Origin: an uncultured Ruminococcus sp.
GTDB taxonomy: Bacteria; Bacillota; Clostridia; Oscillospirales; CAG-272
Assembly (NCBI GenBank): GCA_902778145.1
Contig: CACYWW010000028.1
Span: 1 to 59,251, forward strand
Direction of reading: 5' to 3'
Length of the DNA stretch: 59,251 nt
Shown: in pieces, positions 15,648 through 52,333 of the stretch
Layout: every line of letters begins with the position of its first letter
How positions within the stretch are numbered: the stretch's first letter is position 1
Position numbers and translations under genes: made by a program
The notes under the pieces: model-generated
Databases searched by the model: none
The model's input: the letters and a program-made list of their open reading frames with translations, nothing else
What the model was told of the DNA's origin: nothing

Positions 15648-17427
15648 CTGTCACAGCCTCCTCCATCAGCGCGGTGAACTGAGCATCCATGTCCGCGCCG
15701 ATCTGCGAAAACGTTTCCTCACGGACGCTCTCGTCCGTGTATTTCATCCTCGCTATCTTTTCGCAAACGGGCATCTTTTCTATCTGCTCGAACGGCACGC
15801 CGACCTCGAGCGCGTTCTTTCCGGCTTCGTACCAGTTGTGTATCGCGGTGAGCATGAGGTACATCTTCCGCGGCGTGGTATAGGAGTCGGTGGGATCGAG
15901 CGCGTCCTGCTGCAGATAGTCCTCGCGGATCATCTGCGCGGCGGCGAGCGTCAGCCTGTCGCCCGCTCCGAGCGAGTCGATACCGACGAGCTGTACGATC
16001 TCGTTGAGATCCGCCTCCTCCTGAAGCATGGCCTTCGTCTTCGCGACGAGTCCGGGCCATTCGGGGGAGATCTCCTTCACATAGTGTTCGCGCAGCTTCG
16101 GTTCATAGAGCGAATAGCTCTTGAGCCAGTCTATCGCGGGGAAGTGACGCTTGTACGCGAGCTCGGACGAAAGTCCCCAGAATACCTTGACGATACGCAG
16201 AGTCGCCTGAGATACGGGCTCTGATGTATCGCCTCCGGGAGGCGATACGGCGCCTATAGCCGTTACCGCGCCTTCGCGGTCGTCGGAGCCCAGGCATCTG
16301 ACGTAACCCGCACGTTCATAGAATTCCGCGAGACGGGAGGAAAGATACGCGGGGTAGCCCTCCTCGCCGGGCATTTCCTCAAGTCTGCCGGACATCTCGC
16401 GCAGAGCCTCCGCCCAGCGCGACGTGGAGTCGGCTATTATCGCCACCTTGTAGCCCATATCGCGGAAGTATTCCGCTATCGTGATGCCGGTGTAGATCGA
16501 CGCCTCGCGCGCCGCGACCGGCATATCCGACGTGTTCGCTATGAGGACGGTCCGCTTCATCAGCGAAAGACCGGTCTTCGGGTCGATTATCTCCGGAAAT
16601 TCGTTCATGACGTCGGTCATCTCGTTTCCGCGCTCGCCGCAGCCTATGTAGATGACTATATCCGCGTCAGCCCATTTCGCCAGCTGATGCTGAACGACGG
16701 TCTTTCCGGAGCCGAACGGACCCGGTATCGCGGCGACGCCGCCGCGCGCTATCGGGAAAAGAGTGTCGACGTTGCGCTGACCCGTAACCATCGGCTCGTC
16801 CGGTGAGAGCTTTTCTTTACACGGTCTGCCGCGGCGTACCGGCCAGTACTGGATCATATCGAGATCCTTTTCGCTGCCGTTTTCGTCCATCAGCTTGACT
16901 ATCGGTGTGTCGACCGTGAAATCGCCCTCTCTTATGTTGAGTATCGTACCCTTTACGTCGGGCGGTACCATTATTTTATGGAGCACCGCTTCCGTTTCCT
17001 GCACCGTACCGAGGATATCGCCGCCGATCACGTTCTCGCCGACCTTCGCGCACGGCGTGAAATGCCATTTCTTTTTGCGGTCGAGCGACGGAACGGACGC
17101 GCCTCTGTGTATACGGTCGCCGTAAAGACTGTAAAGCTCGCCGAGCGGACGCTCGATACCGTCGAACATCGATTCGACCATGCCCGGGCCGAGCTCCGCG
17201 GAAAGCGGCATGCCCGTCAGATATACGGGAGCGCCGGCTCCGATGCCCGCCGTATCCTCATAGACCTGTATCGACGCCACGTCGCCCCTCAGCTCTATGA
17301 TCTCGCCGATCAGGCGGTCTCTGCCCACGCGTACAACATCGTACATATGGACGTCCGCCATGCCGGACGCGGTTATCAGCGGCCCCGACACCTTTACGAC
17401 TTTTCCTGTTTTTTCTGTATTTTCCAT
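15640..17427 (-). CDS. atpA: V/A-type ATPase catalytic subunit A
   Basis: A 595-residue catalytic subunit that hydrolyses or makes ATP. Walker A is [12 protein letters not shown] (about residue 232), and the long non-homologous insert between about 115 and 190 typical of A subunits is present (KKKWHFTPC...VPPDVKGTI). Walker B lies at about 320 ([19 protein letters not shown], family block). It lies 20 bases after subunit F and overlaps B. Confidence 0.96.
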
Positions 17428-33475: not shown

Positions 33476-33735
33476 AAAAAACAAGCCCCGGATATCTCTA
33501 CGATATCCGGGGCGGAATAACATTATCCCGCGGTACCACCCGCATTTATAACTCTGCCGCTTTATACGGCGTACCTCTGTAACGGGAGGTCCCGTCGGCG
33601 CTTAATCGACATACGCTTTAGGCGCCGCGGCTCGGGAGCGAGCTTCGACTTTGCCGTGATACGCGCTCTCAGCGAATGCGCGCTCTCTGTGGATGCGGCG
33701 GCAGCGTCTACTTTTCTCCGTCTGTGCTTTTCTGT
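33476..33735 (-). promoter_or_regulatory. T-box leader with terminator
   Basis: Read on the minus strand, the leader has AGTA and AGAGAG motifs of stem I, GCGGGTGGTACCGCG (antiterminator/T-box proper, 33528-33542), then a terminator CCCCGGATATC, loop, GATATCCGGGG and a T tract (33476-33512). The T-box base that pairs with the tRNA discriminator is T, i.e. it expects A73. The specifier lies in GAAGCTCGC; GCT (Ala, after GAA) and CTC (Leu, followed by a purine) both fit and cannot be separated by eye. Uncharged tRNA would let the acyl-CoA ligase operon be transcribed. Confidence 0.88.
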
Positions 33736-48771: not shown

Positions 48772-48861
48772 GGAGAGATGTCCGAGTGGTTTAAGGAGCT
48801 GGTCTTGAAAACCAGTGACTCGCTTTGCGGGCCGTGGGTTCGAATCCCACTCTCTCCGCCA
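48772..48861 (+). tRNA. tRNA-Ser (UGA)
   Basis: GGAGAGA acceptor pairs with TCTCTCC; the anticodon loop CTTGAAA gives UGA; a long variable arm typical of serine tRNA; T arm GGTTCGAATCC; discriminator G and encoded CCA. Confidence 0.95.
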
Positions 48862-48895: not shown

Positions 48896-48986
48896 GGAGA
48901 AGTACTCAAGCCGGTGAAGAGGCGCCCCTGCTAAGGGTGTAGGGCGGGAAACCGTCGCGAGAGTTCGAATCTCTCCTTCTCCGCCA
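48896..48986 (+). tRNA. tRNA-Ser (GCU)
   Basis: GGAGAAG acceptor pairs with CTTCTCC; anticodon loop CTGCTAA gives GCU; long variable arm; T loop TTCGAAT; encoded CCA ending at 48986. It shares the transcript with the UGA tRNA and is followed directly by a terminator. Confidence 0.95.
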
Positions 48987-48987
48987 G

Positions 48988-49017
48988 AAAAAGCCTCGTC
49001 GAAAGACGAGGCTTTTT
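48988..49017 (+). terminator. terminator of the tRNA genes (copy 1 of a repeated terminator)
   Basis: AAAAAGCCTCGTC, GAAA, GACGAGGCTTTTT. The sequence around it, from AGAAAAAG to TTTTTCAACTAA (48986-49024), is almost the same as 52017-52054 on the other side of the cassette. Confidence 0.9.
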
Positions 49018-49022
49018 CAACT

Positions 49023-49197
49023 AAATCCACCCTATCGGGTGGGTGAAATCGCTTTCGCGATGAAATCCCACTTCGTGGGATGAAATCCGCCTCGACGGCG
49101 GATGGGTGGATTTGATTTCATCGTGAGCGAAGCGAACGATTTCATCCGAGGACTGCAGTCCGAGGATTTCACCGCGCCAACGGCGCGATTTCATTAA
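49023..49197. repeat. hairpin chain in front of the S23-like gene
   Basis: An outer 10-base stem, AAATCCACCC (49023-49032) with GGGTGGATTT (49104-49113), encloses three hairpins: ATCGC-TTTC-GCGAT, ATCCCACTTCGTGGGAT and ATCCGCC-TCGAC-GGCGGAT, spaced by GATGAAAT-type linkers. After it the linkers become the complement (GATTTCATC), around hairpins such as GAGGACTGCAGTCC and GCGCCAACGGCGC. As at 4943, the first arm can instead pair locally (CCACCC-TATC-GGGTGG). It ends just before the four-helix-bundle reading frame. Confidence 0.8.
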
Positions 49198-49215
49198 AAA
49201 ACGAGAGGTTTTATC

Positions 49216-49488
49216 ACGGCTGATAATAAACTCGCTGATCTTTCAACCGAATTTGCGGTTCAAATTCTGAAACTCACCGACAGCATTAAAGGTCACTATT
49301 CCCTCGCAAATCAGCTTGAACGGAGCGGTACGAGCATCGGCGCGAATATCCGTGAAGCACAGTACGCCCACGGCAAACCGGACTTTATCGCAAAACTGCA
49401 AATCGCGCTCATATTCAATGAAGACAACTACTATCTGATGGCATACAGCAGTAGACACCCAGAGGGCACGGCCAGCTATATTATTTAA
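49216..49488 (+). pseudogene. decayed S23-type four-helix-bundle protein gene
   Basis: An open frame of 90 codons reading DNKLADLSTEFAVQILKLTD, a strong match by eye to the four-helix-bundle (S23/IVP, TIGR02436-type) proteins, up to LQIAL at about residue 65. Relatives usually start with ATG-GCT-GAT; here the codon is ACG (49216-49218), and no other good start exists. After LQIAL the sequence changes abruptly (IFNEDNYYLM...) and stops; the usual remaining 45-50 residues are lost. It is therefore a truncated, probably untranslated remnant at the left end of the two-gene cargo. Confidence 0.72.
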
Positions 49489-49529
49489 AATGTTTAATCT
49501 GCGCTTATGGCGCAAGAAGGAGGATCACA

Positions 49530-51047
49530 ATGGCTGAACAAACGGTTTTTTCCGAGATGTGGAAAGCGTATCGTGGCGTCATTCTTCATAGCATTGTGAC
49601 CTCGTTCGGCCTCGACTTTATTGTGCGAGATCAGCACGGTGGCGACGTTGATACCATACATGGTGTCAGGGAAACAGGACAATTTAAAAACGCGCGGAAC
49701 GCAGCAGCATACGAAGCTCGAGGCGAATACGATCGCGTTGCATACCATCATAATGATGCCTACGATAGCACCGTTCGTGCTGCAAGAGACAGCCATGCAT
49801 TCTTTGATGACGCATACGTCCCGGGCAATAGGATTTATTACGGAAAAGCCTCCGGCCTTGGCACAGATAGGAAGGCAAACCTCGATCACGTGATTGCTGC
49901 ACATGAAATACACGAGGATCGCGGACGTGTGCTCGCTGGTAAAGACGGCGTAGAGTTGGCGAATACCGCATCCAACTTACAGTTTACCAATGAACACCTA
50001 AATAAGAGCATGGGAGACATGACCATTGAGGAATACATTCAATGGCGCGAAGATCGTGGAGAACCACTCCCTGACGACGTTGTCGCCCAGATGCGTGAGA
50101 AAGACTCCGCTGCACGGAAAGAATACGAACGCAGCATTGCAGAAGCGTATTATTCAAGCGATCGCTTTATTATTGATGCCGGAGTAGCAGCAGCGAAGTG
50201 CGGTCTGAAAATGGGCGCACGGCAAGCGATTGGTTTTGTGTTTATTGAGATTTGGTGTGCTTGTGAAGACGAAATAAAGACACTGCCTTCCGGCGTGTCT
50301 TTCAGCGATTGCATGAAAGCCGTAGCAACCGGAATCCAGAAGGGCTTTGAGAATGCCAAAGCAAAGTACAGGGATCTGCTGGCACAATTCGAGCAGGGCT
50401 TTGTTGCAGGAGCGATGGCGAGCCTTACGACAACGCTGATCAACATCTTCATCACCACCGACAAGAACATGGTGCGCTATATCCGGCAGGGATATACTAC
50501 GGTTGTGCAGGTCGGCAACATCCTGTTCATCAATCCGAATGACTTGCTACTCGGTGACCAGTTGAAAACAGCAATGGTGGCTTTGACAACCGGAGCCAGC
50601 GTAATTGCGGGAACAGCTGTAGGTAACCAGATTGCAAAGACACCGCTCGGCAAAGATGAGCACGTGGGTGTATTCGTACAGAATTTCTGCGCTTCGCTCG
50701 TTAGCGGGCTGATCTCATGCACATTGCTGATCATGATCGACCGGAGCGAATTCATTCGCAAAGTAGTCGAGCGGCTGAATGCCTATGGATCTGTGGAACA
50801 TGAAATAAGGGAAACGTCGGAAACGTTCACTGCTCTCGCTGCTGAGATTGCACAGTATGATATGACCGAGTTTACGGATCAAGTCACGAAGCTCGATGGA
50901 TTCACGCGACAGATGCTCAAGGCCAATGACGATGAGCTACATGAACTGCTGCTTGACACATTTGAGGAATTTGGCATTCCGCTTCCGTGGAATGGTGATT
51001 TCGATGACTTCATGGGCAACCCGGATAATTGCCTCGTGTTTGATTGA
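49530..51047 (+). CDS. membrane-associated HNH-type nuclease-like protein, cargo gene 1
   Basis: A 505-residue protein without recognised name. Residues about 100-165 have an HNH-like core: LDHVIAAHEIH (D119, H120), then NTASNL (N149) and TNEHLNKSMG (N154, H156, N158, K159), the DH...N...H/N order of the beta-beta-alpha metal nucleases. Before it lies a conserved-looking DQHGGDVDTIHGVR segment. Hydrophobic stretches at about 228-246, 288-308, 346-366 and 384-404 suggest membrane insertion. The tail is acidic. AAGGAGG lies 7 bases before the ATG. The next gene follows after 14 bases. Codon choice looks more AT-rich than the neighbours, suggesting transfer. The nuclease reading is by motif only. 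Confidence 0.6.
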   Translation: MAEQTVFSEMWKAYRGVILHSIVTSFGLDFIVRDQHGGDVDTIHGVRETGQFKNARNAAAYEARGEYDRVAYHHNDAYDSTVRAARDSHAFFDDAYVPGNRIYYGKASGLGTDRKANLDHVIAAHEIHEDRGRVLAGKDGVELANTASNLQFTNEHLNKSMGDMTIEEYIQWREDRGEPLPDDVVAQMREKDSAARKEYERSIAEAYYSSDRFIIDAGVAAAKCGLKMGARQAIGFVFIEIWCACEDEIKTLPSGVSFSDCMKAVATGIQKGFENAKAKYRDLLAQFEQGFVAGAMASLTTTLINIFITTDKNMVRYIRQGYTTVVQVGNILFINPNDLLLGDQLKTAMVALTTGASVIAGTAVGNQIAKTPLGKDEHVGVFVQNFCASLVSGLISCTLLIMIDRSEFIRKVVERLNAYGSVEHEIRETSETFTALAAEIAQYDMTEFTDQVTKLDGFTRQMLKANDDELHELLLDTFEEFGIPLPWNGDFDDFMGNPDNCLVFD

Positions 51048-51061
51048 GGGAGGGATTTCTT

Positions 51062-51961
51062 ATGATAATGCGGATCATACGATGGATCATTAGTTTCTTC
51101 ACGCGGCATAAGAAGGGCGTGATCGTTGGTGCTGCGGCAATAGGTGGTGCAGGTGCTGGAGCGGGAATATTTAACGCGCATAAGGCTAAGAAAATAAACC
51201 GTCAGGCGCTTGATATTCAGCAGAACGCACTTGAAAGACATGAGCAGGCCTATCAGGAAACGCAGGCAGTATTAGCGTTACTTGGCGAAGTGGAAAAGGA
51301 TGCAATCGACAGCTTCGTACATTTCGCAGACACGATGGAGCGGATACAGGGCCGACCGAAATTTAAGTCGAATATCTTCTCTACAGTAAAGCTGCCAAAC
51401 TATGAACCGGAAAAAATCAAAAACCTGTCCGCCGAAGTCCGAATGGCAATCGACGGTGTTGTCGGTGCTGGCGTAGGAGGATTGGCTGGCTTAGCGGCGT
51501 TCGGTGCTGGAGCTGGTGCCCTCGTCGCAGCGCCAGCGATGGCCTTAGGTGGTGTAGTTCTCTGCGTCAAAGGTTTTGGTCTGAAGAAAAAGGCCATAGA
51601 GAACAAGCGCCAAGCGAAACAGATGGAAAAGAGCGTTGACGAAATCGTAGCTTTCTATGCTGAGCTGAGAAAAGCGGCAGATTCGTTCAGAGGAAGCGTG
51701 ACTGCTGTTTATAGCAGATATGCAGAATGCCTGCAGCGCGTGGAAGATACACTCACAACAAAAACCGTCTGGAAACAGTTCTCTCGTGAAGAGAAGAAAA
51801 ATGTGGAGAATACCGTTTTGCTTGCTCGGTTGCTCTATGAAATGACCCAGACGAAGATTGTGGTCAGGCAGGAAAAAGAGGATAAGCTCGAAACCGTTAA
51901 CACGGCAGAGATAGCCAAGCTGCAGAAGCAGGCAACCAAGCTGCTGGGAGAGACTGCGTAG
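51062..51961 (+). CDS. glycine-zipper/coiled-coil membrane protein, cargo gene 2
   Basis: A 299-residue protein. A short N-terminal amphipathic/basic part is followed by a Gly/Ala helix (about 18-36, GVIVGAAAIGGAGAGAG), a coiled coil (about 40-95), a second long Gly/Ala hydrophobic region (about 130-170, GVVGAGVGGLAGLAAFGAGAGA), and a further coiled coil to the end. Such glycine zippers occur in membrane-permeabilising proteins. The start ATG at 51062 has GGGAGGG 8 bases upstream; a TTG at 51044 would overlap the preceding stop. Function unknown; it is likely a partner of the HNH-like protein. Confidence 0.6.
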   Translation: MIMRIIRWIISFFTRHKKGVIVGAAAIGGAGAGAGIFNAHKAKKINRQALDIQQNALERHEQAYQETQAVLALLGEVEKDAIDSFVHFADTMERIQGRPKFKSNIFSTVKLPNYEPEKIKNLSAEVRMAIDGVVGAGVGGLAGLAAFGAGAGALVAAPAMALGGVVLCVKGFGLKKKAIENKRQAKQMEKSVDEIVAFYAELRKAADSFRGSVTAVYSRYAECLQRVEDTLTTKTVWKQFSREEKKNVENTVLLARLLYEMTQTKIVVRQEKEDKLETVNTAEIAKLQKQATKLLGETA

Positions 51962-52017
51962 ACGTTACGTTTGTGTGTTCTTACCTCGAAAAATGTACGT
52001 TTGTACGCTCTTACACA

Positions 52018-52047
52018 GAAAAAGCCTCGCGCAAGACGAGGCTTTTT
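52018..52047 (+). terminator. terminator, copy 2 of the repeated terminator
   Basis: AAAAAGCCTCG, CGCAAGA, CGAGGCTTTTT. It ends the two-gene cargo and is almost identical, with flanks, to the tRNA terminator at 48986-49024. Confidence 0.88.
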
Positions 52048-52054
52048 CAACTAA

Positions 52055-52204
52055 GTGTTCCGCTCTCGCGGAACGTGAAGTGTGCTCGCGCGTGATAGGG
52101 GTTCCCCGAAGCGAGCTTGCGAGCGTTGGGGGTTCGCGGATGCGAACGATTTCATCTGAGCATCGCGAGGATTTCACCGCGGCACTGCCGCAATTTCACT
52201 TTTG
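52055..52204. repeat. second hairpin chain, right side of the cassette
   Basis: GTTCCGC-TCTC-GCGGAAC and further hairpins spaced by GTGAAGTG-type linkers, then GATTTCATC, GATTTCACC and ATTTCACT linkers around GCGGCACTGCCGC. The second half matches the left chain (49130-49197) in order and linker sequence. No four-helix-bundle gene follows it. Confidence 0.75.
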
Positions 52205-52300
52205 CATTTTCGTTCGTTTAGGACGCAAACCATCCCGTAAACTCTGCTAACAGGTTTGTCAGCCTGTTTATTCCGTTTTGCATATTCGTTCGGTAAGCAC

Positions 52301-52333
52301 AGAAAAAGCACTTGCGAAAGCAAGTGCTTTTTC
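52301..52333 (+). terminator. third terminator of the same form
   Basis: AAAAAGCACTTGC, GAAA, GCAAGTGCTTTTT inside AGAAAAAG...TTTTTCAA, the same frame as the copies at 48986 and 52017 but with a different stem. It lies in a repeat-rich stretch (TTTGCATTTTCGTTCG at about 52201 recurs as TTTGCATATTCGTTCG). Confidence 0.7.

Follow-up and report, generated by a model that had tools for sequence, protein, structure and literature searches.

Behind the tRNA-Ser(GCU) gene of an uncultured Ruminococcus sp. we found a tandem series of small units that is very probably an array of mobile cassettes inserting directly behind tRNA genes. The units lie in a stretch of 59,251 nucleotides (GenBank assembly GCA_902778145.1, contig CACYWW010000028.1, positions 1 to 59,251, forward strand), which as a whole is referred to here as the window. 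We call them S23 cassettes. A unit opens with its own terminator, continues with a chain of hairpins, or ladder, in which a short word is repeated and then followed by repeats of its reverse complement, and closes, in the genus, with a right end of short repeats; in the units sampled, which were found through S23, the first gene encodes an S23-family protein, and passenger genes may follow it. Insertion of these cassettes at the 3' end of tRNA and transfer-messenger RNA (tmRNA) genes, or of copied tRNA tails, is shown, directly at tRNA-Pro and by comparison elsewhere.

Insertion at the ends of tRNA genes

The genome that holds the window (G000) comprises 2.42 Mb in 84 contigs and is 88% complete. 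At its tRNA-Pro(GGG) gene, ACCA is followed by 543 bp ending in CACGCTCA and then by AATACAGC; in three sister species (G007, G005 and G010) the site is empty, ACCA running straight into AATACAGC. The inserted unit (contig C42, positions 16630-17172) consists of a terminator, a shortened chain, an S23 gene and a right end. It holds no integrase, S23 being its only gene, and it joins the native sequence directly, with no duplicated tRNA 3' tail at its far end. Once joined, the flanks in G000 are identical to G007 at 136 of 140 positions. No unit stands directly behind tRNA-Pro(GGG) in six of the seven readable sites, including those of G002, G004 and G006 (the last read for 107 nt; one tRNA-Pro fragment, L315, was dropped), and in G005 a unit sits on a tail copy of tRNA-Pro about 160 nt further on. 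An earlier note on this DNA, made from the letters alone, had proposed a search for an empty site with a clean junction. Such a junction was obtained at this sister locus, but no empty site was seen at tRNA-Ser(GCU) among six readable relatives, two of which carry units of the same terminator-chain type with other genes behind them and four of which carry other sequence. At that gene G005 appears, compared with G006, to have an added terminator-chain unit; the left arm (10 nt) of the old terminator is missing, and this case was not counted as clean.

Two units from different metagenome-assembled genomes (MAGs), one behind tRNA-Gln (L159) and one behind tRNA-Lys (L160), are 95.9% identical over 978 bp, and the match begins exactly at CCA; on the right the comparison ends at a contig end, and the S23 gene of L160 carries a stop. 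These observations bear on the conventional explanation, in which the units are islands brought to tRNA genes by a tyrosine integrase that was later lost, the distal end of each island being marked by a duplicate of the tRNA 3' tail. The 3' ends of tRNA genes are common integrase targets, and a phage-type tyrosine integrase gene (L110:10584-11762 on contig C7 of G007; PF00589, E 1.1e-16) adjoins tRNA-Ser(GCU) in a sister species. Tail copies also occur elsewhere, including one beyond the tRNA-Pro unit that is present in the empty G007 site as well. At the own ends of the tRNA-Pro unit there is no tail copy, which refutes the explanation for that unit, and the near-identical Gln and Lys units share nothing upstream of CCA, so that one attachment (att) core within the tRNA fails to explain them. 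We therefore consider a lost integrase very unlikely.

Comparison of further units gave evidence of transfer. The 3' part of S23 and the cargo of the tRNA-Tyr unit in G010 are 93.4% identical over 1035 bp to those of the tRNA-Val unit in G000, against 74.1% (2833 bp) and 77.7% (1309 bp) for the syntenic flanks of the two genomes and 82.7% for the best other match longer than 600 bp. The left end and the 5' part of S23 in the same G010 unit are of the window type (77.4%). Because this unit mixes a left part of the window type with a right part of the G000 Val type, units seem, judging from these alignments, to exchange cargo through recombination within S23.

Behind tRNA-His a terminator with a chain or the start of a chain was found in all nine genus genomes compared (two of them read for about 75 and 115 nt). 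Such constancy is what would be expected if nothing moved and the ladders, dispersed through gene conversion, served as conserved regulatory RNAs on the 3' side of tRNA genes. Yet at least five different words stand behind tRNA-His in the nine genomes, with different genes beyond them: GTGAAG, AATGAAG (three genomes), TGATAT and TGAAAT/GAAATC (G009 and G010), and further a TTTCAC-type remnant in G011; the G006 stretch is too short to tell. Together with the clean empty site at tRNA-Pro and the presence of passenger genes, this makes an immobile regulatory RNA scarcely credible.

The same start recurs in G000. A 16-nt pattern from the terminator end gave 17 matches with at most one mismatch, 11 of them exact (10 besides the first unit of the window); with at most two mismatches there were 24 matches, compared with 7 for the pattern read backwards. 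Eight of the 17 lie directly behind tRNA-Gln(UUG), Leu(UAG), Gln(CUG), Arg(CCU), Ser(GCU), Pro(GGG), His(GUG) and Tyr(GUA), two behind tail copies of tRNA or tmRNA, five open second or third units of arrays, and one (contig C9) opens a chain of a different type. A further search for unit starts used a pattern with CA built into it, and CA at the starts that it gave is not independent evidence; that at the tRNA-Pro joint is. Intact S23 genes follow the chain behind tRNA-Pro, tRNA-His and tRNA-Val(GAC).

The array in the window

The insertion target, tRNA-Ser(GCU), occupies 48896-48986 on the forward strand (ARAGORN), with its encoded CCA at 48984-48986, and lies downstream of tRNA-Ser(UGA) at 48772-48861 (ARAGORN). 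The order of mgsA, a gene of 200 aa and both tRNA-Ser genes is kept in seven of the ten stretches fetched from relatives. In one of them (G005, L114:1172-1262) a single-base change, perhaps an assembly error, gives the tRNA-Ser(GCU) orthologue the anticodon GAU, and ARAGORN reads it as tRNA-Ile.

Unit 1 (48987-52017, forward strand, 3031 bp) comprises a left end, an S23 remnant, two cargo genes and a right end. Its left edge is set at the first base after CCA, as for the tRNA-Pro unit, and its right edge at the last base ahead of the next GAAAAAG, both limits being drawn by analogy. The terminator (48987-49018, forward) has a perfect 14-bp stem, and the ladder behind it (49019-49194, forward) reads TGAAATC at 49044, 49061 and 49081 and then GATTTCA at 49114, 49138, 49165 and 49187. 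The right end (51966-52017, forward; D4, 79%) is formed by two 28-nt repeats beginning TACGTTTGT and ends in CTTACACA. It contains the single occurrence in the window of ATGTACGTTTG, which belongs to repeat 2 of the right ends of relatives (chance not computed). Unit 2 (52018-52301, forward, limits again by analogy) has a terminator, a degenerate chain and a right end ending in GGTAAGCACA, and no gene was seen in it. A remnant of unit 3 (52302 to about 52420, forward, its end not defined) has a terminator at 52302-52333 and the start of a chain of the AATGAAG type.

The earlier note had described one cassette lying between two near-identical terminators. The likeness is real: the terminators at 48987-49018 and 52018-52048 are identical in their 5' 14 nt and share 24 of 25 nt in the 3' part, and that at 52302-52333, absent from the note, adds a third. 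What stands is a mobile cassette bounded by terminator and chain; the single cassette does not, the second terminator being the opening of the next unit in an array. The unit starts precisely where the tRNA ends, opening with a terminator of its own, and it has a right end as well. A derivation of the second terminator as a hybrid of two types was considered and not used, a one-base insertion being equally possible. The hairpin chains were borne out by folding, chain 1 having an energy of -104.8 kcal/mol against a mean of -70.2 for 200 dinucleotide shuffles (z -7.9) and chain 2 a weaker z of -3.1.

The truncated S23-like gene that had been noted was also recovered. Over 49216-49410 (forward) the remnant scores above the curated cut-offs of the S23 / TIGR02436 four-helix bundle family, both with PF05635 (E 3.7e-13, 50.1 bits, cut-off 33.8) and with TIGR02436 (E 1.9e-14, 53.8 bits, cut-off 24). 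Compared with an intact relative (L076), it has ACG in place of the ATG start codon and has lost its C-terminal part, and it is fused to a fragment of 25 codons (49411-49485, forward; joint frame 49216-49485). By its motif this fragment is perhaps the end of a WYL regulator, a gene that also stands before the cargo relative on plasmid CP103805, but the BLASTP match is not significant (E 0.028), and this origin was set aside. The note's suggestion that an S23-like protein from elsewhere in the genome serves as a helper does not hold: S23 is a component of the unit, and its copy in the window is dead. With the start of S23 gone, its C-terminus cut and the right end diverged, the window copy is decayed. 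As the note had said, there is no transposase or integrase inside unit 1 (none among the families matched) and no duplication of the tRNA end.

Both cargo genes were confirmed as open reading frames (ORFs) on the forward strand. Gene 1 (49530-51047, 505 aa) matches the candidate defence protein PDC-M40B of PADLOC (E 1.5e-30). Relatives of it occur in 68 records of plasmids, at best at 37%, and in 7 of phages, at about 24%. Gene 2 (51062-51961, 299 aa; alternative frame start at 51044) matches PDC-M09A of PADLOC (E 4.6e-6). On the Clostridioides difficile plasmid CP103805 the gene order is a WYL regulator, a relative of gene 1, YkgJ and a relative of gene 2, the last, two places past the gene 1 relative, being 26% identical to our gene 2. 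A Klebsiella plasmid has a relative of gene 1 with YkgJ and no relative of gene 2 named beside it. These matches make the two genes a candidate anti-phage pair that unit 1 would have carried, its working S23 having been lost. Elsewhere in the window, Rfam gave, where the contig begins, a match to a group II intron (32-97, forward) and further on a T-box leader at 33505-33733 (reverse, 102.5 bits).

Ladder, right end and passenger genes

The ladder has a recurrent design, in which a short word occurs two to five times and its reverse complement two to five times after it, usually three or four plus four, with hairpins between. About a dozen words were found, namely ATGATG, GTGATG, ATGAAG, GTGAAG, TGAAAT, CTAAAT, TGATAT and rarer ones. 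For ten ladders of the ATGATG type (alignment A3, from which L279 was left out after it had been wrongly oriented in a first alignment, A2), RNAalifold pairs word 1 with the last anti-word, word 2 with the last but one and so on, the hairpins protruding on both sides. In this structure 95.2% of cells are paired, and in 11 of 54 pairs both partners have changed, values that none of 500 shuffles reach. The folded form has its own difficulties: covariation was counted on the alignment that itself yielded the structure, which favours the structure; on one of five measures, the number of further pair types, 54 of 500 shuffles did as well; and ten of the eleven double changes lie in the side hairpins, with one among the 30 pairs of the spine, which is nearly invariant within a word family. 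The array of words and anti-words could also be a protein site on double-stranded DNA.

Word and protein are linked. Among seven word groups, assigned by hand, mean S23 identity is 0.80 within groups and 0.59 between them (0 of 1000 shuffles), and the nearest S23 below 95% identity carries the same word in 73 of 76 cases. S23 subfamily and ladder word are thus co-inherited.

One word group proved to have been described already as an RNA. The Rfam family Gut-1 (RF01706) matches chain 1 at 49018-49091 with 68.7 bits, above its gathering score of 50. In 20 loci chosen by hand, the gathering score was exceeded by 10 of 12 with TGAAAT-type words and by one of eight with other words, and the Gut-1 RNA is the ladder of one word group. 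In G000 there are 63 Gut-1 matches at E up to 1, of which 13 exceed the gathering score; the control genomes have none above it. In its original description Gut-1 is probably a noncoding RNA standing alone, found in environmental sequences only, and the available part of that account names no mobile unit (PMC2864571). G000 also contains a second dispersed type of chain (L001-L006, L008 and L009). Its copies open with a hairpin like GCCGACTGTTCT..AGGACAGTCGGC, continue with the same ladder start and close, in those read to the end, in GACGTTTGGCACACAAACGTC; several lie at contig ends, no tRNA was noticed in the 90 nt before them, and all eight match Gut-1 over the cut-off.

Comparison of unit ends gave the right-end repeat GCATCTRAATTGAYCGYCACNCTCA. 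With at most three mismatches it occurs in 12 copies among the genus genomes, the reversed control pattern giving none, and it is common to units with different words. Two further repeats of about 21 nt (read by eye) precede eight of the 12 copies. Ten are followed by a hairpin resembling a terminator, which is either the left end of the following unit or an apparent native terminator; in two the hairpin is truncated. Behind tRNA-Ala(CGC) in G010 a unit of 352 bp has both left and right ends and no recognisable gene, which suggests that an enzyme acts on the cassettes in trans.

Passenger genes are common. In 61 of 68 units chosen by hand, an ORF of at least 55 codons begins no more than 260 nt from the S23 stop, and in 13 it overlaps this stop by one base. 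We scanned 36 of these 61, of which those far from S23 may be host genes, and found matches to GNAT acetyltransferases in five, to methyltransferases in four, to nucleotidyltransferases in three and to single other families in others; several match defence or candidate defence models.

Related S23 loci were collected with the aligned S23 proteins of the genus, where PF05635 is present in nine of 12 genomes. The best 80 of 588 relatives were taken and are hence biased towards close relatives; they come mostly from gut and rumen MAGs labelled Clostridia, Oscillospiraceae, Ruminococcaceae or Clostridiales. Six with less than 150 nt upstream were dropped, leaving 74. Our strict test looks at the 330 nt before S23 and asks for a 6-mer present at least twice, with two or more copies of its reverse complement after it. 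A looser word test (68 of 74 related loci; 25 of 70 in the class draw described below) also passes one-way repeats (L172, L183, L237 and L250), and for this reason the strict two-way test is quoted. It was passed by 63 of the 74 related loci and by 17 of the 24 genus and window loci. With duplicates included (at least two loci, L074/L163 and L080/L197, are counted twice), the total is 107 of 168, compared with 8 of 169 downstream stretches and 4 of 168 shuffled controls. A tRNA or tmRNA gene lies within 1200 nt upstream of S23 in 52 of the 74, always on the same strand, and downstream of S23 in 1 of 71. All 52 upstream genes end in an encoded CCA, and 36 of them lie 216-278 nt from the S23 match. 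The terminator is part of the unit, since one and the same sequence stands behind tRNA-Tyr (L152) and tRNA-Ala (L156).

A draw across the class, in which S23 occurs in 81 of 291 genomes, provided 70 loci (30 returned by the search itself, with 40 more fetched from the upper end of a capped, score-ranked list), a sample that is not even within S23. All 11 of its loci with an upstream tRNA or tmRNA carry the motif SGTSIGAN. S23 genes of the SIPxNIAEG type, which are without an upstream tRNA, show only scattered passes of the ladder tests (L229, L237). In a one-contig genome of the class (G233:C1), four equal-scoring SIP-type copies lie far apart and are perhaps intervening sequences (IVS) in rRNA operons. 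Carriage of the units by phages was considered and rejected: the right end was found in none of the 14 S23 loci of a viral collection, loci that were not checked for ladders. We also noted a second small repeat type at tRNA ends (L115, L118, L112, L330 on G001:C76 and L061:901-1470, and at tRNA-Pro L309, L311, L313 and L314). Several of its copies have, close to the start, part of the tRNA tail in inverted orientation; a direct tail copy stands at the far end, in some cases in tandem. Such tail copies are also targets of S23 cassettes.

Several observations weigh against the reading of these units as cassettes that move to tRNA ends. In the class draw only 27 of 70 loci passed the strict test, and a tRNA or tmRNA lay upstream in 11 of 70 and downstream in 5 of 70; the cassette association is limited to one branch of S23. 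Units with the CTAAAT word mostly have no tRNA upstream, one of the 17 terminator matches in G000 (contig C16) lies behind no recognisable tRNA, and at L288 (G269:C53) two units start inside S23 genes, about 370 nt apart. This last arrangement looks as if one unit had entered another and been repeated. The right end was found in just five of 12 genus genomes, and those of the window are not among its 12 copies at up to three mismatches; the 352-bp unit may have become gene-less once it had inserted. Nor does CA stand at every joint, the G010 Tyr unit having TA and three His genes having no encoded CCA. The tRNA-Pro site is the only one where both the empty and the filled state are fully clean, neither a circle nor a movement event was seen, and no recombinase behind the movement was identified.

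Possible mechanism and relation to known elements

For the cassettes as mobile units we envisage the following course. A cassette enters behind the tRNA or tmRNA gene, or behind a copied tRNA tail, and brings its own terminator; as the tRNA and its termination stay intact, insertion would be nearly harmless. Newer units would enter between the tRNA and older units. The ladder would fold as single-stranded DNA or RNA, with a spine of words and anti-words and with side hairpins, and may be recognised by the S23 protein of its own family. A recombinase or transposase supplied in trans would recognise the right end and join the two ends of the cassette where the tRNA ends, in many cases with CA left at either joint. 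Relatives of S23 with a solved structure are 2rld and 2gsc (E up to 0.01), and the Xanthomonas S23 structure is a homopentamer of four-helix bundles; older proposals saw the IVS as a mobile element whose ORF served mobility, its function and origin being called unclear in the part of that source available (PMC4990558). It is possible, and we propose it tentatively, at rather less than even odds, that the S23 four-helix pentamer is the mobility protein of a separate class of mobile element, binding the ladder of its own family and putting cassettes at the ends of structural RNA genes, with strand exchange borne by the host or provided in trans and guided by the T-arm that tRNAs and tmRNA share; the 23S IVS and Gut-1 would then be relics or relatives.

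An integron-like process was also weighed, in which a tyrosine recombinase of the integron kind uses the tRNA end as attI and the ladder as a folded analogue of attC. Tandem arrays at one proximal site with folded ends fit it, as do single passenger genes, since GNAT, methyltransferase and nucleotidyltransferase genes are often seen in integrons. Some tyrosine recombinase match was present in every genome searched, but the integron integrase model TIGR02249 had no match over its cut-off in any of 19 unit-bearing genomes. Its weak matches, found in all 19 and in all 14 controls, are other tyrosine recombinases (the incomplete G000 shows one place). In addition, the units bear their own S23 and terminator, and we consider this mechanism unlikely.

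A retro-element would involve a unit RNA joined to the tRNA transcript and reverse transcribed, with S23 acting like Avd, the protein of diversity-generating retroelements. In favour are the structural RNA genes as targets and the form of S23, which we take to resemble the reverse transcriptase partner Avd. One reverse transcriptase each in seven of nine genus genomes searched also speaks for this rival and against ours; the window's own genome has one. Across the 19 unit-bearing genomes, PF00078 was found in eight and in none of the five well-complete ones, and reverse transcription seems to us as improbable as a lost integrase.

Among known systems, the 23S rRNA IVS is likewise a small element with one S23-family gene in a structural RNA gene, and a mobile origin has been proposed in what is accessible of its description (PMC4990558). 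The cassettes differ in lying behind tRNA or tmRNA genes and not inside 23S (tRNA-Ser in the window, and an RNA gene upstream in the 52 of 74 loci given above), and in having ladders of repeated words, passenger genes, right-end repeats, and several copies and arrays. Gut-1 matches the cassette ladder, over the gathering score in the window, but its account, as far as available, treats it as a stand-alone noncoding RNA (PMC2864571). Integron cassettes share the tandem units at one proximal site, the single passenger genes and the folded ends; S23 cassettes differ in their tRNA-end site, their own S23 and terminator, and the lack of an integron integrase over the cut-off. Integrative and conjugative elements, prophages and satellites also target tRNA 3' ends, but S23 cassettes are without an internal integrase or tail duplication, and one unit fits different tRNAs. 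The 352-bp gene-less copy with both ends recalls hairpin elements of the type of repetitive extragenic palindromes and miniature inverted-repeat transposable elements; unlike these, most sampled S23 units lie behind RNA genes, and complete units carry S23. No description of such a unit appeared among the papers listed from the mainly open-access literature searched, most subscription papers and preprints lying outside it. Because they fail defining tests of integrons, IVS and integrase islands, we file S23 cassettes as a new kind of element, working somewhat like integron cassettes.

In conclusion, the Gut-1 RNA and the S23 protein family, so far both orphans, gain a common context in one moving unit. 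The question of mobility in S23 and the IVS is now directly testable, since a defined unit with its two ends is available, together with an empty site and a version that lacks genes. Insertions at tRNA ends are usually explained by integrases, and annotation alone would show here repeats and a small unknown gene. Overall, S23 cassettes provide a route by which gut Clostridia may gather single passenger genes, candidate defence genes included, at the ends of their tRNA genes.

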